Assembly: GCF_032884065.1 (NCBI RefSeq)
Contig: NC_088883.1
Coordinates: forward strand, 30,948,568-31,012,567
DNA: 64,000 nt
Source: Artemia franciscana
Lineage: Eukaryota; Arthropoda; Branchiopoda; Anostraca; Artemiidae
Reading direction: 5' to 3'
Shown here: piece after piece, positions 6,572 through 60,943 of the stretch
Layout of the letters: each line of letters begins with the position of its first letter
How positions within the stretch are numbered: position 1 is the stretch's first letter
Position numbers and translations under genes: made by a program
The notes under the pieces: model-generated
What the model saw: only the letters and a program-made list of their open reading frames with translations
Databases searched by the model: none
What the model was told of the DNA's origin: nothing

Positions 6572-7710
<1,139 letters not shown>

Positions 7711-8147
7711 GGCGATATATTAGAATTTATATCTTATGGGAATATATCAGTTAAAAGCAGAAACTGGAGAAAGTTAGACAAAAACTGGAAACTGGAGAAA
7801 GTTAGACAAAGCAGAAACTGGAGAAAGTGCTTTTAAAACGGAAGTGTAAAGACTGAATTAGATTACGAACAAATTAAATATAGGAATAAAAACTAAGTAT
7901 GTTTTTGAAAAATGAGACTTCGGTGGCAGAAATGGAGAAAATCCTTCAAAATAGTCCCTCTCTTTCATATAGATAGTGTCTTCCCTAGAGGACTAATTTT
8001 ATAATGAACTTAATATCTGGCCAATTTGTTTGGAATAAGTGATCCTAGTAACCTTGGAAAGAGTCATTCGATTGGGAGTTGAAAATTCTCGTGTCTTTTT
8101 CTAGGGATGAAACTATTTCGATCGTAGCAAGATTTCTTAAAAAAAAA
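7711..8147. other. No recognised gene
   Basis: AT-rich sequence with a small duplication of GCAGAAACTGGAGAAAGTTAG (about 7757-7828, three partial copies). No open frame of interest. Confidence 0.5.
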
Positions 8148-8364
8148 TTAACCCTAAAGCTAGGCAAAAATCAACGTTTTTGGGTGAAAAAGTGTTTTAG
8201 TGCCAACCGAGTTTTTCTTGTAAGTCTGGCCTTTAATTCGAGGAAGCTGCCTGTATGATTTTCTTTCAAAACTGAGAAGCAGAAGTTTCAGAGGTGTTTT
8301 AGTGGCCCTAAAAAATGCACCAAGCGGGAGACTGAGATGTTTCAAAGAAGAATAAGCAGACATA
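8148..8364. repeat. Left flanking repeat of the 44-bp minisatellite
   Basis: This segment (AACGTTTTTGGGTGAAAAAGT, AGTCTGGCCTTTAATTCGA, CCTGTATGATTTTCTTTCAA) has a diverged same-orientation copy at about 10240-10440 on the far side of the minisatellite. The array therefore sits inside a duplicated unit. No convincing ORF. Confidence 0.65.
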
Positions 8365-10190
8365 ATGGTCGTGCCACTGTTTACTGTTCATTATTGTAAG
8401 GGTTTTGAAGCGGAAGCCACTATTTACTGTTCATTATTGCAAATAGTGTTGAAACGGAGGCTACTGTTCACTGTCCATTATTGTCAAGGGTTTTGAAAGG
8501 GAAGCCATTCATTATTGTAAATGGTGTTGAAACGGAGGCCACTGTTCACTGTCCATTATTATAAAGGGTTTTGAAAGGGAAGCCACTGTCCGTTGTTCAT
8601 TATTGTAAAGGGTGTTGAAACGGAGGCCACTGTTCACTGTTCATTATTGTAAAGAGTTTTGAAAGGGAAGCTACTGTTCACTGTTCATTATTGTAAAGAG
8701 TTTTGAAAGGGAAGCCACTGTTCACTGTTCATTATTATAAAGGGTTTTGAAACGAAAGCCACTGTTCATTATTGTAAGGGTTTTGAAAGGGAAGCCATTC
8801 ATTATTGTAAATGGTGTTGAAACGGAGGCCACTGTTCACTGTCCATTATTATAAAGGGTTTTGAAAGGGAAGCCACTGTCCGTTGTTCATTATTGTAAAG
8901 GGTCTTAAAACGGAGGCCACTGTTCACTGTTCATTATTGTAAAGAGTTTTGAAAGGGAAGCCACTGTTCACTGTTCATTATTTTAAACGGTGTTGAAACG
9001 GAGGCCACTGTTCACTGTTCATTATTGTAAAGAGTTTTGAAAGGGAAGCCACTGTTCACTGTTCATTATTGTAAAGAGTTTTGAAAGGGAAGCCACTGTT
9101 CACTGTTCATTATTATAAAGGGTTTTGAAACGAAAGCCACTGTTCATTATTGTAAGGGTTTTGAAAGGGAAGCCATTCATTATTGTAAATGGTGTTGAAA
9201 CGGAGGCCACTGTTCACTGTCCATTATTTTAAAGGGTTTTGAAAGGGAAGCCACTATCCGTTGTTCATTATTGTAAAGGGTGTTGAAACGGAGGCCACTG
9301 TTCACTGTTCATTATTGTAAAGGGTTTTGAAACGAAAGCCACTGTTCATTATTGTAAGGGTTTTGAAGCGGAAGCCACTATTTACTGTTCATTATTGTAA
9401 ATAGTGTTGAAACGGAGGCCACTGTTCACTCTCCATTATTGTAAAGGGTTTTAAAAGGGAGGCCATTCATTATTGTAAATGGTTTTGAAACGGAGGCCAC
9501 TGTTCACTGTCCATTGTTATAAAGGGTTTTGAAAGGGAAGCCACTGTCCGTTGTTCATTATTGTAAAGGGTGTTGAAACGGAGGCCACTGTTCACTGTTC
9601 ATTATTGTAAAGAGTTTTGAAAGGGAAGCCACTGTTCACTGTTCATTATTGTAAAGAGTTTTGAAAGGGAAGCCACTGTTCACTGTTCATTATTATAAAG
9701 GGTTTTGAAGCGGAAGCCACTATTCACTGTTCATTATTGTAAATAGTGTTGAAACGGAGGCTACTGTTCACTGTCCATTATTGTAAAGGGTTTTGAAAGG
9801 GAAGCCATTCATTATTGTAAATGGTGTTGAAACGGAGACCGCTGTTCACTGTCCATTATTTTAAAGGGTTTTGAAAGGGAAGCCACTGTCCGTTGTTCAT
9901 TATTGTAAAGGGTGTTAAAACGGAGGCCACTGTTCACTGTTCATTATTGTAAAGAGTTTTGAAAGGGAAGCCACTGTTCACTGTTCATTATTTTAAAGGG
10001 TGTTGAAACGTAGGCCACTGTTCACTGTTCATTATTGTAAAGAGTTTTGAAAGGGAAGCCACTGTTCACTGTTCATTATTTTAAAGGAATTCAAAAGGGA
10101 AGCCACTGTTCACTGTTCATTATTGTAAAGAGTGTTGAAACGTAGGCCACTGTTCATCATTGTAAAGTGCTTTGAAACGGAAGCACAAGG
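8365..10190. repeat. 44-bp minisatellite array, about 40 units
   Basis: The unit is of the type GAAAGGGAAGCCACTGTTCA, CTGTTCATTATTGTAAAGAG, TTTT. Two alternating variants (AAAGGGAAGCC and AAACGGAGGCC) give a higher-order pattern, and some units lack the CTGTTCA block. Unit length is not a multiple of three and no reading frame is kept. Long blocks within the array (for example around 8470-8960, 9140-9330 and 9420-9720) repeat each other, so it grew by multi-unit duplication. Confidence 0.92.
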
Positions 10191-10239
10191 ATCGAATTAG
10201 TTTACGATTAAATCTTGTAAAAAACCAGAAAAAAAATTC

Positions 10240-10440
10240 AAAACGAGGCTGGAATCAAGATATTTTGGTGAAAAAAGTGTTGTAGTGTCTATCCACGTCA
10301 TCTTGTAAAAGTGGCCTTTAAATCGTTGAACCAGCCTGTATGATTCTCTTTCAAGATTGAAATAGAAAGTGCTTTAGTAGAACTAAAAGATGAATCAAAT
10401 GGGATAGGGGGGCTATTTCAAGAAATAAGATACATACATT
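10240..10440. repeat. Right flanking repeat of the minisatellite
   Basis: A diverged direct copy of 8148-8364, sharing TTTTGGTGAAAAAAGTGTTG, AAAGTGGCCTTTAAATCG and CCTGTATGATTCTCTTTCAA. Non-coding. Confidence 0.65.
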
Positions 10441-10638
10441 GCTATCCCACTTTCTGTCATTATCATCAATGGGCTAAAAAGACTCATATAACTTTCATTT
10501 GGTCTAGCTGTAACAATCCAAAAATGAAAATAATTGCACCTTTTACTGGTACGGCTGTAAACCTGTTGGTACGGCTGTAAACCTGTAAACCTTTCATATT
10601 GCAGCTTTCATGCCTAAATGTCATGAAGCCTACTTAGG

Positions 10639-11433
10639 CTGGTCAACTAGCCTACATAGGTATTGACTGATCGACAGTTCTTCAAAGAGATTTTGATTAC
10701 ACTCCCTTATATTTATCGTAGCTTTAACTGTAAAATACTTTCTTTGAAAAATGTTTGAAAAATTTTCAAACTATTGAGATGGTTGCTAAATACCGTTTTC
10801 TGTTTTCAAATCGAGGATCATCAATAGGATAATGTATATTAGGAGAATTAAAGTATTGATTTAACACAATCTAACACGCTTAACACGATTTAACACAATT
10901 TAACACGCTCTGCTAATCTTCTCGCGCGAGCAGAGTAGCAAATGGTTTTCGGCAATTACCCCAGATGTGTATAAATATCAAGTTTGACATTTACGTATGT
11001 CGCGGCAATTATCCCAGAAGTGTAAAATGTCGAATGTGACATTCAAGTGTGTCAATGATAATATTTGCCGAGCATCAAAGAAACACTAAACACAGTTATA
11101 GAGGTTGATAGTAAGAGAGGGTAGGATGCGACTACTAAGTGGAATTATTGAACAAAATAGAAGTGAATCTAACAATATATACAAGGTAAAACCCCAAATA
11201 ATTAAGATTTAACGAAAAAAAAATAAAACGAAAAAAAAATCTAAAATGCAAATCAAAGATAAACCAAATATTGTATAAATTAAAAACAAGAAAATTGCAT
11301 ATTTTACGAAACAGAACTTATCAAAATGGTCAACTAGCCTACTTAGGTATTGACTGATCGACAGTCCTTCAAAGAGATTTTGATTACACTCCCTTATATT
11401 TATCGTAGCTTTAACTGTAAAATGCTTTCTTTT
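10639..11433. repeat. Pair of ~107-bp direct repeats about 690 bp apart
   Basis: 10639-10745 and 11326-11433 are almost identical (TGGTCAACTAGCCTAC, TATTGACTGATCGACAGT, TCAAAGAGATTTTGATTACA, CTTATATTTATCGTAGCTTT). Between them are short AT-rich repeats of AACACGATTTAACAC type (10860-10910) and two related GGCAATTA-CCCAGA segments (10950-11010). No ORF links them. They could be short terminal repeats of a degenerate element, or a simple segmental duplication. Confidence 0.7.
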
Positions 11434-12385
11434 TTTTTATTTCACTTTCCAAAATGTGTGCCGAACATTTTTGTCCATGTAGTTGTTTAATTATGTTTAG
11501 TTTTTTTTCATTGTTTCACCAATTTCTTCTCAAGAGTGCCATCTATTCTATTTTTATCATGTTTCCTCCTTTTAACTTGGTATCATCATTTTATAACTAC
11601 GTTACATTTCCATTCTTCGGTTCATCGGGATTCTGGAATGTATTGACTTTCGGTCAATTGCAGAAGATTATAAAGCTTTTAATTACATATCATATACTGT
11701 TAATGTGAAATAAATGTAGATTGATTGGGAAAATCCCAACCGAGTCATTTTGACATAACCAGTGTAATTTGAAAAAGAAAATATTAGATATGCTTTAATG
11801 ATCTTTGATGGCAGAGCATAAGCTCTCTACTTATTCTTTTTAATTTTTTTTGATTATTTGCCCAAGTTTGAGTCACTTCCTGCACGCTGGTGGAATTTTT
11901 CCCTTTTTTTGTTCTCTGCTTTCTTCTATCTTTTCATTTTTACTTCTGTGGTTTATCTTTATTTCTGTTTATTTATTTACTTTTTAACGCGTTGATGTGT
12001 ATAATTTTTATGTTTGTTACTCCCAACATTTACGATCCGTGCTCTCCGTAGGGGTGCATTATCATTTTGCTGTTGTGTTGTACTGATTTGAGTCAATAAA
12101 TACTTTTATTCATTATAAACACTGCGACCAGCACGAATAGCGCAGTTAACAAACACGGCTCTAAAAATATTTTCTTTAGTTTTCTTCTCATTTTACAAAA
12201 TATTTACCGAATATTCATGTCCACAATTATTTTATTATAAGGTATTTGAAATTGATCATTTAACTATTGGCTATTTTCTTCTTTTTGTTGTTTCATCTGG
12301 ATCTTCTCGGAGATGCCATCAATTTCATTTTGATCATTTTTTTTCTCTTTAATTTTTAATTTTGTGTATTTGTTACCGTGAGGGT
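11434..12385. other. No host gene; possible LINE 3' tail
   Basis: T-rich sequence with an 84-codon ORF at 11454-11708 that has no recognisable motif. It contains TCAATAAATACTTTTATTCATTA near 12093-12117, which looks like a LINE-type 3' end with a polyadenylation signal. The second half (12120-12370) repeats words from the first (ACATTTTTGTCC / ATATTCATGTCC, GTTGTTTCATC / TTGTTTCACC), so it may be a diverged duplication. Confidence 0.35.
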
Positions 12386-47620: not shown

Positions 47621-47726
47621 TCACATATGTGCCTGATTTGGTTGCTTCCACTTGTACGAGCCGTAGTATTTAAAATCAACTTTGGCTAAAAGTTCATCTG
47701 CTTCTTTGGGTCCACGCGAGCCAAAC
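47621..47726 (-). CDS. G6PD: Glucose-6-phosphate dehydrogenase, last coding exon
   Basis: On the minus strand, after the acceptor TTCTTCTAG, the first base completes a split valine codon. The frame then reads [20 protein letters not shown], then [14 protein letters not shown], and stops at 47623-47621. This is the G6PD C-terminus (human YGSRGP...EGTYKW). From the family's structural NADP+ site, the residues equivalent to human Arg487 (GSRGP), Tyr503 and Trp509 are kept, while the position of Lys497 is Ala, with Lys one residue later. The exon joins in phase with 52035-52195. Confidence 0.93.
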
Positions 47727-52034: not shown

Positions 52035-52195
52035 ACATAGGGAATCGGCTTAATTTTCTCCTTTTCAATTTTGTGGAGAAGGGGCGTAAAAATCCTCCAG
52101 GCTTCAGCTAACTCGTCAGTTCTGACGAAATGCATCTGAGATCCACAAAAAACATCCAAAATCAAACGTTCATATGCGTCAGGCATCTTTACATC
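52035..52195 (-). CDS. G6PD: Glucose-6-phosphate dehydrogenase, penultimate coding exon
   Basis: On the minus strand, after CGTTCTTTTAG (acceptor), the exon reads [40 protein letters not shown] and [14 protein letters not shown]. It ends with a split codon at GT/GTGAGT (53 codons plus 2 nt). It closely follows human G6PD ([37 protein letters not shown]) and covers the C-terminal alpha+beta domain. G6PD oxidises glucose-6-phosphate with NADP+, the first step of the oxidative pentose phosphate pathway, in the cytosol. The intron immediately upstream of this exon is packed with copies of this exon's own acceptor region (52196-54895). Confidence 0.95.
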
Positions 52196-54895
52196 CTAAA
52201 AGAACGTTCGTGTTTTAAAATGAGCAATGAGCTTTACATCCTACAAGAACGTTCGTATTTTAAAATGAGCAATGAGCTTTACATCCAACAAGGACGTTGA
52301 TATTTTAAAATGAGCAATGAGCTTTACATCCTACAACAACGTTCATATTTTAAAATGAGCGATGAGCTTTACATCCTACAACAACGTTCGTATTTTAAAA
52401 TGAGCAATGAGCTTTACATCCAACAAGAACGTTGGTATTTTAAAATGAGCAATGAGCTTTACATCCTACAACAACGTTCGTATTTTAAAATGAGCAATTA
52501 GCTTTACATCCTACAATAACGTTCGTATTTTAAAATGAGCAATGAGCTTTACATCCTTCAAGAACATTCGTATTTTAAAATGAGCTTTACATCCTACACG
52601 AACGTTCGCATTTTAAAATGAGCAATGAGCTTTACATCCTACAAGTACGTTCATATTTTAAAATGAGCAATGAGCTTTACATCCTACAAGAACGTTCGTA
52701 TTTTAAAATGAGCAATGAGCTTTACATCCTACAACAACGTTCGTATTTTAAAATGAGCAATGAGCTTTACATCCTACAACAACGTTCGTATTTTAAAATG
52801 AGCAATGAGCTTTACATCCAACAAGAACGTTGGTATTTTAAAATGAGCAATGAGCTTTACATCCTACAACAACGTTCGTATTTTAAAATGAGCACTGAGC
52901 TTTACATCCTACAAGAACGTTTCGTATTTTAAAATGAGCAATGAGCTTTACATCCTTCAAGAACATTCGTATTTTAAAATGAGCTTTACATCCTACAAGT
53001 ACGTTCGTATTTTAAAATGAGCAATGAGCTTTACATCCAACAAGAACGTTGGTATTTTAAAATGAGCAATGAGCTTTACTTCCTACAACAACGTTCGTAT
53101 TTTAAAATGTGCAGTGAGCTTTACATCCAACAAGAACGTTGGTATTTTAAAATGAGCAATGAGCTTTACATCCTACACAAACGTTCGCATTTTAAAATGA
53201 GAAATGAGCTTTACATCCAACAAGAACCTTGGTATTTTAAAATGAGCAATGAGCTTTACATCCTACAACAACGTTCGTATTTTAAAATGAGCAATGAGCT
53301 TTACATCCTACAACAACGTTCGTATTTTAAAATGAGCAATGAGCTTTACATCCAACAAGAACGTTGGTATTTTAAAATGAGCAATGAGCTTTACATCCTA
53401 CAACAAGAACCTTGGTATTTTAAAATGAGCAATGAGCTTTACATCCTACAACAACGTTCGTATTTTAAAATGAGCAATGAGCTTTACATCCTACAACAAC
53501 GTTCGTATTTTAAAATGAGCAATGAGCTTTACATCCAACAAGAACGTTGGTATTTTAAAATGAGCAATGAGCTTTACATCCTACAACAACGTTCGTATTT
53601 TAAAATGAGCAATGAGCTTTACATCCTACAATAGCGTTCGTATTTTAAAATGAGCAATGAGCTTTATATCCTACAACAAAGTTCGTATTTTAAAATGAGC
53701 AATGAGCTTTACATCCAACAAGAACGTTGGTATTTTAAAATGAGCAATGAGCTTTACATCCTACAACAACGTTTGTATTTTAAAATGAGCAATGAGCTTT
53801 ACATCGTTCAAGAACATTCGTATTTTAAAATGAGCTTTACATCCTACACGAACGTTCGCATTTTAAAATGATCAATGAGCTTTACATCCTACAAGAACGT
53901 TGGTATTTAAAAATGAGCAATGAGCTTTACATCCTACAAGATCGTTCGTATTCTAAAATAAGCAAAAAACTTTACATCCTATATGAACGTTCTTATTTTA
54001 AAATGAGCAATGAGCTTTAAATCCTACAATAACGGTTGTATTTTCAAATGAGCAATGAACTTTACATCCTTCAAGAACATTCGTATTTTAAAATGAGCTT
54101 TACATCCTACAAGAACGTTCACATTTTAAAATGAGAAATGATCTTTACATCCTACAAGAACGTTGGTATTTTAAAATGAAAAATGAGCTTTACATCCTAC
54201 AAGATCGTTCGTATTCTAAAATGAGCAATGAACTTTACATCCTACATGAACGTTCTTATTTTAAAATGAGCAATGAGCTTTACATCCTACAATAACGTTC
54301 GTATTTTAAAATGAGCAATGAGCTTTACATCCTTCAAGAACATTCGTATTTTAAAATGAGCTTTACATCCTACACGAACGTTCGCATTTTAAAATGATCA
54401 ATGAGCTTTACATCCTACAAGAACGTTGGTATTTTAAAATGAAAAATGAGCTTTACATCCTACAAGATCGTTCGTATTCTAAAATGAGCAATGAACTTTA
54501 CATCCTACATGAACGTTCTCATTTTAAAATGAGCAATGAGCTTTACATCCTACAATAACGTTCGTATTTTAAAATGAGCAATGAGCTTTACATCCTTCAA
54601 GAACATTCGTATTTTAAAATGAGCTTTACATCCTACACGAACGTTCGCATTTTAAAATGAGCGATGAGCTTTACATCCTACAAGAACGTTGGTATTTTAA
54701 AATGAGAAATGATCTTCACATCCGACAAGAATGTTGGTATTTCAAAATGAAAAATGAGCTTTACATCCTACAAGATCGTTCGTATTCTAAAATGAGCAAT
54801 GAACTTTACATCCTACATGAACGTTCTTATTTTAAAATGAGCAATGAGCTTTACATCCTGCAACATTGTTTGTATTTTAAAATGAGCAAATTAGC
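52196..54895. repeat. 45-bp minisatellite built from the G6PD splice-acceptor junction, about 60 units
   Basis: The plus-strand unit is AGCAATGAGCTTTACATCCT, ACAAGAACGTTCGTATTTTA, AAATG. On the minus strand each unit reads GCTCATTTTAAAATACGAAC, GTTCTTGTAG, GATGTAAAG: the intron end, AG and first nine exon bases of G6PD (real site: CGTTCTTTTAG/GATGTAAAGATG). The first unit starts at the real junction. Some units are shortened to about 34 bp (for example near 52583, 52980 and 53830). Variants (TACAACAACGTTCGTA and CAACAAGAACGTTGGTA) alternate in multi-unit blocks, and the distal part (from about 53870) repeats a ~270-bp block. The plus-strand frames are open up to 205 codons only because 45 is a multiple of three. 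Confidence 0.95.
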
Positions 54896-55305
<410 letters not shown>

Positions 55306-55469
55306 GCGGAAATTGAGCATATTAGACTTCAATCGAAGTTTGATTGTAAGGACATTGTATTTACCCACATATAAATTTGTGTTGTGTCTATAAATATTTT
55401 TTTCTACAAGTTTTCTAGAAAAATAGTTTTTATATTAAGATATTTTTCTAGCAAAGTATTTTTTCTACA

Positions 55470-55583
55470 GCTTTGAAGCATGGGCGCTCGGAAAAACAGA
55501 GGAAGATTTGCTAGATGTTTTCCAGAGAAATTGTCTACGGATTGTTTTGAGTACCTGGCTTACTGACCGTATTTCATTCGAAT
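55470..55583 (+). mobile_element. RTE-like LINE fragment
   Basis: The frame [20 protein letters not shown], then CLRIVLSTW and LTDRISF is the same block as 6615-6725 ([20 protein letters not shown]). It is a fragment of about 110 bp without either element end. Confidence 0.8.
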
Positions 55584-55905
55584 TTAGGTTCTTAAAAATA
55601 GAAAAATATTTCAGTTGCTAAAAAATAGGGAAAAAAAATCATTTTGTTGCACAATGCTATACTAATGTTTAAAATTCTTGGCAATGATATACTGGGATAG
55701 CCATAGAGCTTCTCTGGATTAGTCTAAAGAAAAAACAAAAACAGAACAACAAAAGCCAAAAAATGATGAATAAATTAAAATTATTTAGTCAGGATATAGA
55801 AAAGAAATAAAAGGGGATGGATATTTTGACCTGTAATATCATGATGATATACTTTTATTTTGGTCTTGAATATAGCCACCATTATCGATGTTCACTGGTC
55901 AAACC

Positions 55906-56768
55906 CAGTGATTCCCATTTTTGGGGCACAGGCCCCAAAAATGGGGCATGGCAATATTTTAGTGGGTCAAGCACAGGATGCGCACCCTCTGAATGACCAT
56001 ACTCTAGAGCCTGAATTTAGAAAAAAAATTCATGTGAAAGGAGTCACATTCATATGCTTTTAAAGAGCAAGAACGACACAAGATAGTATTCCAATGACAT
56101 CATGCAATGATGCAAAGATAGTATTCCAATGACATCATGCAATGATGCAAAGATAGTATTCCAATGACATCATGCAATGATGCAAAGATAGTATTCCAAT
56201 AACATCATGCAATGATGCAAAGGTAGTTTCAATGACATCATGCAATGATGAAAAGGTAGTATTCCAATAGTAATCATGCAACGTATAAAAAGTGTTGTAT
56301 AAAGATATAAAATTAGTATAATTAATGTATTGTACTAAAAAAAATTAGCTTATTATACTAAAAAAAAATGGGGTATGGCAATATTTTAGTGGGTCATATA
56401 CAAGACGTGCACCCTTTGGCTGACCATACTCTAGACCCTGAATTTAGAAAAAAGTCATATGAAAGAAGTCCCATTCATATGCTTTTAAAGAGCAAAGAAC
56501 ATACAAGATAGTATTCCAATGACATCATGCAATGCATAAAAAGTGTAGTATAAAGATAAAAATTTAGTATAATCAGAATATTATACTAAAATAAATCAGC
56601 ATGAAAGAGGACGATTCGAAAAAAGATACCAAGTTAATGACAATTTGACTTCCCTTCAAGTGAATACGCGTAAAAATTTGAGTAATAAAATTTAAATATC
56701 AAGAGGGGGCACTATGATTTTAGAAATGCCTTGGTAGGGCATGGCCCAAAATTGGCTGGGAAGCACCG
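55906..56768. mobile_element. Possible hAT-like non-autonomous element with internal tandem repeats
   Basis: The ends CAGTGATTCCCATTTTTGGG (left) and, in reverse complement, CCGGTGCTTCCCAGCCAATT (right) resemble the CAGNG-TTCCCA style of hAT terminal repeats, but I see no convincing 8-bp target duplication. Inside, a ~160-bp segment (GGCAATATTTTAGTGGGTCA ... TCATATGCTTTTAAAGAGCA) occurs twice, at about 55950 and 56378, and a 35-bp tandem repeat (56080-56280) lies between. No transposase. Confidence 0.5.
56080..56280. repeat. 35-bp tandem repeat, about 6 units
   Basis: The unit is GATAGTATTCCAATGACATC, ATGCAATGATGCAAA. The last units are degraded. Confidence 0.92.
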
Positions 56769-56861
56769 GTTTACACTAACTGCCTAATAATGTTCAACTA
56801 GGTCTTATCGAATTAAACATAACTACCAGAACTAAAAGCAAAATAAAGTCGGATACTTCCA

Positions 56862-57155
56862 CCATTCTAGCCGAGTGGCTAGCACGCTAGACTTGAAATC
56901 TTTTGTCCGTGAGTTCGGAAGTTCGAGTCCTAGTGCCACTGGTTATTTGGTTTGGAGCAGGGGTCAGTGGCGTGACTCAGTAAGCTCAGCCCAAGTCGAC
57001 CCAACTATAAATGGGTTCCTAGAAAGTTGGGGAAGGGAAACAGGAAGGGTATGTGAAAGCATACTATAGCTGGCCCCCAACCCCCCATTGTACTTCCTAG
57101 CTGAAAGGTCATGAAACGAATATAAGCACCACCAATAGGGACTGTAAAGGTAAGT
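56862..57155 (+). mobile_element. tRNA-Ser-derived SINE (copy 2, full head)
   Basis: The head looks like a serine tRNA: TAGCCGAGTGGCTAGCACGC (box A), anticodon loop CTTGAAA (UGA), a long variable arm, and GAAGTTCGAGTCC (box B). The expected acceptor-stem pairing is poor, and tRNA-unrelated sequence follows directly (GTTATTTGGTTTGGAGCAGG ... CAAGTCGACCCAACTATAAA ... CTGGCCCCCAACCCCCC ... AGGGACTGTAAAG) and is shared with 36554-36790. It is therefore a SINE, not a tRNA gene. The tail has no long poly-A. Confidence 0.82.
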
Positions 57156-57437
57156 GCATTACTCTGTACCGTTTTTTTACAGGCATTTTAGAATCTAACC
57201 GACTATATCATTAAACTATATTATTTAAAAATAAAGGGAGGCTATCACTTTTAAGTCAGGTACGACAGAACAAGAAAACTAGATTTGTACGGGATATATT
57301 TATGTTAGGCATTTTCACTGGAGAGAAGCCCTTAGACCTGTGCCCCCAGGCATATTTCCGAAAATCTAAAATCCCAGTTTTTATGATCATTGCATTATTT
57401 CCCATGTTTTTCGTTTAATTTGGCATTGCTATTATTA
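57156..57437. other. G6PD intron, spacer
   Basis: Nothing recognised between the SINE and the mariner. Confidence 0.45.
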
Positions 57438-58602
57438 CAGGGTTTGTCCTGAAAGCAATAGGACTGAGTAGATTGAAAAATATTTATGGAGCCAATCGGT
57501 TACAATTCTTTAAAAAATTTCAAAATAGGCTCCTTCTGCGTCAATGCAGCGCTGCCAGTGTGATTTCCAAGCATTGAAGGCGGTACGATCGGCCTTTTCA
57601 GGTTAGGAAAAAAATCTGGGGGCCACATCTGGGCTGTATGGCAGCTGGCAGGTGGCAGTATGGCGGGGTGATCCAGGGCGTTGTCGTGGTGCAACTTACA
57701 GTCGACTGAGACGTCTTGTTGGACCCGATTGACCCTTCATTTGAGTCTCTTGAGCATTTCACATAAAATTTGGCGTTTACGGTTTGTCCAGGAAGAACAA
57801 ATTCATGGTAGACGATGCCTTTGATATAAAAAAAGACAATGAGCATTGTTTGCTCATTCTAGCCTTTTTTGGACGAGGAGACGCTGACGTGTGCCACTCG
57901 GAAGATTGCCTCCTTGTCTCGGGATCATACTCAAAGATCCAGGACTCGTCAACTGTGATTACGTTATTCGAAAATTGGGGGTCACTTTTACACATGATCA
58001 ATTTTCTTGGCACAATTACATTCGCCACAATTTCTGGTTGTCAGTGAGAGATTTTGGGACAATCTTCGCGCACACCTTGCGCATATTTATATACACCGCC
58101 ACAATGTCAAGAACGACAGATTTTGGTAAATTTAACATTTGGGCAAGTAAATGAATACTTAGTCGACAGTCTGCACACACGAGTCACATTGTCGGTGTTT
58201 GTCGAAGTCGAAGGTGTTCCAGCACGGTCTTCATCGGCGACCTCTTCCCGGCCCTCCAAAAAAAACCTGGTGCCACAGACAAACATCACATCTTTCAAAA
58301 GCAACATCTGGGTAAGCCTGCTTGATCATATCAAACGTCTCTGTCACAGATTTACCGAATTCCGTACAGAATTTAATAGCGTACCTCTGCTCTAACGAAC
58401 GCTGCATTTTCGGTTTGCACCACTCACAGAAACATGTTGCACAAAAATGCCTGTCTTGACTCACCAGGTGCTTGGAGACAACTTACCAGCCACTCGTTCG
58501 TTAGCTAGGAACGCCCTCTACCGAATGCAGTCGGCGCGCGCACGCTCCAAAGTACGGTCGCGGAGGAAGAAAATCAGTCCTATTACTTTCCGGACAACTC
58601 CG
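57438..58602 (-). mobile_element. mariner-type DNA transposon, 1165 bp
   Basis: The terminal inverted repeats CAGGGTTTGTCCTGAAAGCA, ATAGGACTGA (left) and, in reverse complement, CGGAGTTGTCCGGAAAGTAA, TAGGACTGA (right) are flanked on both sides by TA, the mariner target duplication. The length suits mariner (about 1.2-1.3 kb). It lies within the G6PD intron, transcribed in the same direction as G6PD. Confidence 0.88.
57500..58470 (-). pseudogene. mariner transposase, inactivated
   Basis: Minus-strand pieces in order: EQRYAIKFCTEFGKSVTETF, MIKQAYPDVAFERCDV and WHQVFFGG (N-terminal helix-turn-helix region); REEVADEDRAGTPSTSTNTD, NVTRV (linker); VDESWIFEYDPETRRQSSEW (first catalytic Asp region, VDESW instead of the usual GDE(S/T)W); YHEFVLPGQTVNAKFYV; and LHHDNALDHPA (second catalytic Asp region). 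At least three frameshifts and a deletion between the linker and catalytic core separate them, so no intact protein can be made. Confidence 0.88.
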
Positions 58603-59028
<426 letters not shown>

Positions 59029-59385
59029 CTATGTTACGAAAATAAAAAAATGCTCCTGAAAACGTGAAGCTTTAAGATGAAAAGGTTTAATACTTTTTGA
59101 GGGAGAAAAAGTCAGTAAAATGTCTAATCAGCGGAAGGAGGTCTGTATATGTTGTGTAACCTTATCCGCAAAGTCTTTGTTTGAGAATGGGATATTTGCA
59201 TAGTTTGGGATACTTGCCCATCAAGCTGTAGGAAAAAGGCGGCCCCAATTGCAATTTTAGCCTATAAATTTTTTCCCTAAGTCCCTGTCAAGAAAACAGA
59301 TGAAGTAAAAAGGAAAAAATGTTTTCAGAGTATCATTTCAATAGCCTTTAAATACACACTTGGCAATACACATATATACACCCTT

Positions 59386-59389
<4 letters not shown>
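59029..59389. other. G6PD intron, spacer
   Basis: No features recognised. Confidence 0.45.

Positions 59390-59478
<89 letters not shown>
59390..59478. repeat. (TA)n microsatellite
   Basis: About 44 pure TA units. Confidence 0.95.
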
Positions 59479-59480
<2 letters not shown>

Positions 59481-59569
59481 AGCCCACATAAGAGGTCTAC
59501 CAACTAAAAATGATATATTTAGTGGTCCATGAACTTCTAAAGTTTGGCAACCGCTGCTTTAAATGACCA

Positions 59570-59960
59570 CCCCTTAGGTTTAGGCATTCTAAAATTACAT
59601 TAGCTGACAAGGCATAACTGAAATTTAACATTTTAATTACAGATGATAAAAATTCAAACTCGAAAATGGAGATCTACGACGGAGATCCTGCGCAAGTTAT
59701 TGACGGTTATTAACGGTAATTCCGTTATTTAACGGTATAGTTGTCCTGCGTTCAGTAGAGATAAAATCACATACTTTTTGCAGGTTCATCGCCATTAAAA
59801 TCCTCTGATTGGTTGAAAGTGATCATACGACATCACTTTCATATGAATCCTCTATTAAAGGTGGCTTTGGATTTGTTCTCCCGGATCTTTAGAATTTTAC
59901 TAACTGAAGTTTAACATTTTATTTCCAGCTGATAAAAATTCAAACCGCAAATGAAAATCA
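59570..59960. repeat. Imperfect direct repeat pair, offset about 290 bp
   Basis: CTGAAATTTAACATTTTAAT, TACAGATGATAAAAATTCAA (59619-59658) recurs as CTGAAGTTTAACATTTTATT, TCCAGCTGATAAAAATTCAA (59904-59943). The central GTTATTAACGGTAATTCCGTTA patch (59706-59727) is palindromic. Confidence 0.7.
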
Positions 59961-60249
59961 ACATTTTATATGTCATTTGCAAAAAAAAAATGCATGACAA
60001 TATTATATTTACTATATTTTCCGATACGTTTTCTGAATTCATACTATTAACTTTTTTTTTATCATACCTTTCTTTTTATTCTTCTTCAGGTTCAGCAACA
60101 CAGACATCACAAAATACAATACAATTACACTGTATTATTATTTCATATACAATATTACATATATGTGTTGTAGGAAGGCTATAATAATATATATATTTGT
60201 ATAATATTTGTTAATTACAAATATTATATATACTATATCCTATATAATA

Positions 60250-60250
<1 letters not shown>

Positions 60251-60345
<95 letters not shown>
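60251..60345. repeat. (TA)n microsatellite
   Basis: About 47 pure TA units within an already TA-rich stretch (60180-60390). Confidence 0.95.
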
Positions 60346-60348
<3 letters not shown>

Positions 60349-60737
60349 AATACATTTCCTATATTTTACTACACTATATATAATATAGATACTATAATAT
60401 AAAGCAGGATTGAGAGGAATTTAGCCAAAAAAACATTTTCCCAAAATTCCTCCCGAAAGTTGGTGAGTAAAAGTACCAAAATTGAACTGTACATTCGAAC
60501 CAAACTTTATAATTCTAACTTATTTTCTTTTCTCTCTTTGGACTAGCTATGGTTCAAGATCCATGATAACTGTCTGACATTATCATAACACAGTACTGAC
60601 ACAAATTCTGTTAAATAAATTTTGCTAAAATTCATTCCAATATTTTGCTAAATAAAAATACCAACATTGAATCGTGCATTCAAAACCAACTTTCCATATT
60701 TAACTTGTGTTTTGTTTTATACCTTTAGTTAGCTTAC

Positions 60738-60943
60738 CTTGTACCTGGTACCATAGGTCAAATCAAGCTCAGTTTCTTCAATATCAAAAGACATTCCAGG
60801 TGATTTGGTCATCATTTTGATATAGACAGCTTCACCAGGCTGCACTCGAATGACCAGCTCATTACGTTTAGCTTGACGACCAAAAATATCACCGGGTACA
60901 TCACGATACTGAATTCTAATTTCTGCTTTCCTCTCGTTCAAAG
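60738..60943 (-). CDS. G6PD: Glucose-6-phosphate dehydrogenase, internal coding exon
   Basis: The exon lies on the minus strand between the acceptor TATTTCTTTAG and the donor AAG/GTAAGC (60737). It begins with 2 nt of a split Ala codon, then 68 codons: [60 protein letters not shown] and LTYGTRYK. It is nearly collinear with human G6PD ([38 protein letters not shown]). Residues equivalent to human Arg393, Tyr401, Lys403 and Asp421 of the structural NADP+ site are all present. The exon ends at the same Lys/Asn-Val-Lys junction and joins in phase to 52195. Earlier exons were not found up to 64000. Confidence 0.96.

Follow-up and report, generated by a model that had tools for sequence, protein, structure and literature searches.

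How is a splice acceptor chosen when the intron that it closes ends in dozens of near-copies of it? This question is raised by a minisatellite of Artemia franciscana located in the 64,000-nt stretch of DNA analysed here (the window), which belongs to contig C21 of an assembly of 1.27 Gb in 6,468 contigs. An earlier note on this DNA had read each 45-bp unit of the minisatellite as a copy of the acceptor of the adjacent G6PD exon, and had proposed that the splicing machinery either passes some 60 decoys or uses them, the array being neutral or a length-variable regulator of G6PD output.

The G6PD gene and the architecture of the array

The identity of the gene as G6PD was confirmed by domain and protein comparison. 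Pfam G6PD_C matched two minus-strand stretches of the window, and residues 6–526 of the annotated A. franciscana G6PD protein (P0002) matched eight collinear places on C21. When these matches were joined at GT–AG sites, the protein was reproduced around all seven junctions. On the minus strand, a coding exon of 206 nt (60738..60943, defined by junction mapping with P0002 and by G6PD_C) ends in phase 0 with the donor AAG/GTAAGC and is followed by a phase-0 intron of 8,542 nt (52196..60737, junction mapping), in which the array occupies the 3' end. The array had been placed at the intron start, which is correct in plus-strand coordinates but not in the sense of the transcript. The coding exon after the array (52035..52195, minus strand, 161 nt, donor TGT/GTGAGT) was defined by junction mapping and by 100% identity with P0002 over 53 amino acids, and the last coding exon, including the stop codon, was mapped in the same way to 47621..47726 (minus strand). 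The real acceptor of the array exon is the site used by P0002, a single annotated protein.

The first G6PD coding exon has a near-identical second copy (L024, C1041:587276-587452), either a duplicate, a haplotig or a pseudogene. The intron with the array also contains a weak Transposase_1 match on the minus strand (about 57751–57864, E = 0.0021, below cut-off). The annotated G6PD protein of Chelonia mydas (P0001) displays a tandem 31-residue repeat in the part that is homologous to the array exon, perhaps an annotation artefact.

Parsing of the array unit by unit revealed 60 tandem units (52196..54857, minus strand), while TRF gave a span of 52187–54889. Most units are 45 bp long (52 of 60), the others measuring 38 bp (six units), 46 bp (one) and 48 bp (one). 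The consensus unit of 45 bp consists of nine exon-start bases, two branch-point-like CTCAT motifs, a short tract and TAG. In the unit comparison, the nine bases that open the real exon (52187..52195, minus strand), GATGTAAAG, were found exactly at the start of 56 of the 60 units and with a one-base difference in the remaining four, in agreement with the description of each unit as an acceptor plus the first nine coding bases. The real exon start follows the units in register, so that the array indeed abuts the real junction. A degenerate leading unit (54858..54889, minus strand, from TRF and inspection of the edge) ends in TTGCAG, which is followed directly by GATGTAAAG of unit 1; measured back from the end of this AG, the homology extends over about 32 nt.

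The AG is kept at 49 of the 60 unit ends, 44 of these being TAG, and corresponds there to 48 decoys and the real acceptor TTCTTTTAG (52196..52204, minus strand), which was characterized by matrix scoring and pyrimidine count. At the other 11 ends it is lost (TTGTTG nine times, TTGTCG and TTGAAC once each). The TTGCAG of the leading unit brings the decoys to 49 in total. The figure of about 60 decoys is thus right for the whole units but too high for the acceptors, which are 49 decoys and the real site. The difference between TTGTAG in the units and TTTTAG at the real site holds for the commonest unit end (34 of 60), and a T at position -4 is confined to the real site among the 50 AG sites. Two CTCAT motifs that fit the branch-point pattern yUnAy are located at -33 and -26 in the last unit. 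Since the same motifs are present in the consensus unit, each full unit looks like a self-contained acceptor module. Units 1–24 form a six-unit higher-order repeat, with a divergence of 0.058 at lag 6 versus 0.10–0.14 at lags 1–5 and 7. The 45-bp units differ from each other by 9.1% on average (pairwise), and the mean deviation of a unit from the consensus is 2.4 places (5.3% of 45), which is not exceeded by the last unit with its two deviations.

The possibility of a chance resemblance was addressed at 26 resolved junctions, where the upstream 1,400 nt were searched for perfect matches to the nine bases at the start of the exon. Thirty copies were detected at the array exon and none at each of the 25 control exons, which shows that the shared bases exceed chance. 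In the 1.27-Gb assembly the array unit was not found elsewhere, in a search that scored a single candidate place and of which the counts are lower bounds. The nine bases encode D-V-K, which is frequent among animal G6PDs: DVK occurs in 68 of 118 aligned G6PD homologues (118 of 120 listed sequences, out of 939, matched the alignment pattern), indicating that the array was copied from the exon. At the place of the CTC of the units, Leu was found in 99 and Met in 19 of these 118 homologues among the matches listed. As the listing was ranked by similarity to a query with Met, and as Met is present in Daphnia magna (P0055) too, an exon origin is safe for nine bases only, and it is not claimed here that the CTC represents an ancestral Leu codon.

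Decoy acceptors and the real site

The strength of the acceptors was evaluated with a small matrix derived from 25 other junctions of two genes, G6PD and Artemia dynein, one of the 27 introns (L056–L058) having been left out as unresolvable. With a score of 5.60, the real acceptor was the best of the 50 sites, followed by decoys at 5.00, 4.86 and 4.81, which corresponds to a margin of 0.6 bits. Decoy scores ranged from -0.39 to 5.00, each of them exceeding at least 4 of the 25 genuine acceptors in leave-one-out scoring; the median of the 50 sites, 3.44, was above 10 of the 25 under the same scheme. Ordinary intronic AGs (n = 446) had a median of -6.4, with 1.8% reaching 3.44 and three (0.7%) reaching the score of the real site. 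All seven positions from -9 to -3 are pyrimidines at the real site, uniquely among the 50, whereas the 49 decoys have six (8 decoys), five (40 decoys) or four (one decoy). The T-to-G difference near the AG matters but is small. Given that the margin is only 0.6 bits and that the decoys lie within the genuine range, site strength alone does not explain the presumed use of the real site, and position or the downstream exon must help in its choice.

An argument based on exon definition is weakened by the properties of the exons concerned. The donor of the array exon (TGT/GTGAGT, window 52035) is weak, exceeding no more than 2 of the 26 values that leave-one-out scoring gave for real Artemia donors (a set that includes its own), and the nearest decoy would give an exon of 206 nt, an ordinary length beside the mean coding piece of about 246 nt listed in Table 2 of the A. 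franciscana genome paper (PMC11492255). A donor inside the unit (GAT/GTAAAG), which would create cassette exons, was considered and rejected: it is weak as well, surpassing 2 of 26 real donors and being equalled by 23% of the 571 intronic GTs scored. RNA structure hiding the decoys was also rejected. Compared with shuffled sequences, folding is somewhat better in the exon-proximal stretch (z = -2.1, 3 of 100 shuffles as good), the middle of the array shows no folding excess (z = -1.0), and within windows of 200 nt the decoys are, if anything, more open than the real site.

The consequence of decoy use was predicted by reading each decoy in phase 0. All 49 run into a stop inside the array, as had been expected, after 8–29 codons. 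The product DVKLIAHFKIRTFL followed by a stop, which the earlier note had derived, applies to the consensus unit but not uniformly to the array, exactly 14 codons being obtained for 27 decoys. Of the 526 residues, the C-terminal 88 would be missing from the product, and the stop would lie at least 161 nt before the last junction. A stop that far upstream of the last junction is by the usual rule expected to lead to decay. The decoy transcript is thus a candidate for nonsense-mediated decay, where the frame is observed and the decay predicted. A regulatory role gains no support from this stop, which is nothing special and no sign of design, since the consensus unit contains stops in its two other frames as well.

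Junction duplications in Artemia and in other animals

Arrays of period at least 10 were surveyed at 26 acceptors and 26 donors, and additionally at 40 myosin exon matches, the ends of which are not exact junctions. The latter were taken from 66 listed matches, the first 20 without internal stops and the second 20 partly with them, leaving out 26. Besides the G6PD array, two junction duplications were identified among 25 other introns and the 40 myosin exon matches, suggesting that such duplication recurs in the Artemia genome. In a myosin-head exon (L074, C4:16779204-16779916, local 68–281), which makes a second acceptor mirage in the genome, the acceptor and the P-loop-coding start are present in four tandem copies, 53, 53 and 52 bp apart, and the last alone continues into the exon. 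The real site scores 4.63 versus 0.86, 0.48 and 0.86 for the decoys, its tract being free of a purine present in the other three copies, and two of the three decoys stop at the TAG of the next unit. The other case is located at a donor of a dynein heavy chain gene (L053, local 1631–2048, C5 near 58639528), where a 207-bp repeat is present in two copies with four differences (98%), each comprising 47 bases of exon and 160 of intron; this is either a recent duplication of the junction on its donor side or a duplicate created by the assembly.

Since arrays of period at least 20 account for 8.5% of the gene loci sampled (the array locus excluded), two cases represent no excess, and by a rough estimate junctions are not enriched for arrays, if anything spared. 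In both acceptor arrays the top score belongs to the true site (best of 50 in G6PD, best of four in myosin). Were every unit equally likely to be the real site, this would have a probability of about 1/50 × 1/4, a post hoc value obtained from two cases with a small matrix.

An AT-rich array of period 62 ends 2 bp before the second G6PD coding exon (L022, local 1345–1519, minus orientation) and supplies the pyrimidine tract of that exon without containing exon bases. Among the candidates that were rejected as junction duplications, a pyrimidine-rich array at L070 overlaps the match end by nine bases and was discarded after sequence inspection, while the arrays at L069 and L087, within 60 bp of the match, were discarded from unit and position only.

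The closest counterparts are the so-called mirages of amphioxus, minisatellite-like tandem repeats across the intron-exon boundary, which are described for Adh3, TnC and the globins BflGb6 and BflGb9, and to which PGBD5 duplications are likened (PMC3087553, PMC3902484). Regular splicing is reported as undisturbed, splice signals as kept in many but not all units, and length instability as occurring between haplotypes or cells. The repeat of BflGb6 combines an intron 3' end with the 5' part of the exon, haplotypes with six and three units being reported, and concerted evolution operates inside the clusters with the edges left out (PMC3087553, PMC3902484). The Artemia unit likewise spans the boundary, with an acceptor and nine exon bases in register, and the splice signal is kept in many, not all units (AG at 49 of 60 ends). 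As to the edges, the homogenized six-unit blocks and the degenerate leading unit would fit such evolution, but the last unit does not, being no more deviant than average. The Artemia array differs in belonging to a crustacean, in its 60 units compared with the six and three of BflGb6, in having nine exon bases per unit and in its six-unit higher-order repeat.

In the human ABCA7 gene, a VNTR of intron 18 consists of 25-bp units holding the donor of exon 18 and counts about 12–427 units in people (PMC5954066). Retention of one unit amounts to about 2% independently of array length and leads, through the site of the next unit, to a premature stop, whereas length correlates with skipping of exon 19 and with lower expression. 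Both arrays flank an exon of which they contain the splice site in many decoy copies; it is a donor in ABCA7 and an acceptor in Artemia, and effects on splicing and expression were measured for ABCA7 while the Artemia array is known from its sequence. Human segmental duplications contain internal tandem repeats at exon-intron boundaries, on average four units of 30 bp and half of them in coding sequence, which change splice choices and have formed novel introns (PMC2812944). Minisatellite expansion at the boundary is common to both, and the sections seen of that report describe no acceptor array of the Artemia size. The title of a Drosophila paper names tandem duplication as giving rise to novel intron positions (PMC2891723), thus junction duplication as such is already known in arthropods. 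An array of this kind in Artemia or another arthropod was not seen in the literature surveyed, which was mostly that readable without subscription. Measured against the cited passages, the Artemia G6PD array joins the known junction-spanning minisatellites, and its acceptor array is long compared with the amphioxus figures.

Origin of the array and its meaning

All in all, the G6PD array is probably a junction-spanning minisatellite of the mirage kind, grown by duplication, with a functional last unit, and its effect is most likely neutral or a slight cost. Some 45 bp straddling the 3' splice junction (at least about 32 nt of intron tail and nine exon bases) would have been duplicated in tandem, and unequal exchange would have led to growth and homogenization, as suggested by the unit structure and the higher-order repeat. 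Duplication would push the older copies into the intron, so that every unit would be a complete acceptor module, while the unit touching the exon would remain the functional site. Splicing most likely uses this last unit, because it has the best pyrimidine tract, is alone followed by the exon body and is nearest to the exon donor. That the annotated protein uses the real acceptor and that the real site is the best of 50 both count for the mirage reading, faithful use of the last unit being suggested by this one protein. Decoys are probably used rarely, and any use would produce an in-frame stop within 29 codons; a low, unproductive leakage is possible.

Other origins were weighed against this. 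A larger part of the exon (some 39 bases from its start, including ATATGAACGTT) could have gone into the unit, the acceptors being derived exon sequence. An 11-base stretch (ATAYGAACGTT) is shared, with one mismatch, by unit and exon interior, yet its score was reached by 6.7% of 5,000 shuffles and equalled by 3 of 25 control exons; the sharing is not significant, and this origin was rejected as highly improbable. Even harder to credit is a dispersed or mobile satellite that fell by chance beside an exon with a few bases in common. The genome is rich in tandem arrays (those of period at least 20 make up the 8.5% of sampled gene loci mentioned above and 16.9% of window 1–48000), but the unit was found at this locus only, in a search giving lower bounds, and its nine bases stand in exact register, unlike at any of 25 control exons. 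Finally, an inflated or misassembled copy number seems very unlikely. If the assembly analysed is the published one, it was made from PacBio reads of DNA of 14 females with Peregrine, Pilon polishing and reference-guided scaffolding (PMC11492255), which leaves the copy number uncertain. Against an artefact, the units differ from each other and units 1–24 carry an ordered repeat that error would hardly create, the flanking G6PD exons are in order, and an array of 2.7 kb should fit into single reads of a 20-kb library. For another large minisatellite of the window (8373-10156, 44 bp × 42), a neighbouring exon was looked for, but no Pfam family was detected above cut-off in 7001–12000.

A length-variable regulator, in which decoys would capture a share of splicing, the transcripts would stop early and decay, and array length would tune G6PD output, is unlikely although more plausible than the origins just discussed. 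It would benefit from the 49 decoys scoring inside the range of genuine Artemia acceptors and from their 49 stops, but the latter are not diagnostic in a unit that stops in every frame. In variability the A of the AG ranks third among the positions of the unit, with changes in 10 of the 52 45-bp units where the G is invariant, as selection against decoys would give. The losses are however few in kind, mostly TTGTTG (9 of 60 units), and could simply have spread by homogenization, so that AG loss does not decide between drift and such selection. The ABCA7 VNTR offers a precedent with use of the donor of the next unit, length-dependent exon skipping and lower expression, but the use of the next unit was unchanged by array length (PMC5954066). 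The true site being the best copy in both acceptor arrays points instead to quiet decoys, in line with the mirage reading.

These data suggest that junction-seeded minisatellites, known from amphioxus, recur in a crustacean genome, and that a junction minisatellite can get large in a core metabolic gene with the annotated protein still intact. Tentatively, and with more doubt than confidence, Artemia may add to amphioxus another, distant animal lineage whose junctions repeatedly seed minisatellites, here under a 'weak-copy' filter. A junction array would then expand only if the copy that starts it had a spoiled pyrimidine tract, and the genuine site would stay the strongest at the exon edge, a pattern that both acceptor arrays fit. 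The choice of the spliceosome among near-identical acceptors is usually studied with artificial constructs, and the G6PD array provides 49 natural near-copies, whose tract strengths and positions differ by small and known amounts, in an animal amenable to culture and sequencing. If the filter is true, such arrays would be a natural mutagenesis record of how weak a tandem acceptor must be in order to be ignored, and loss of the margin would make array length a dial on gene output.
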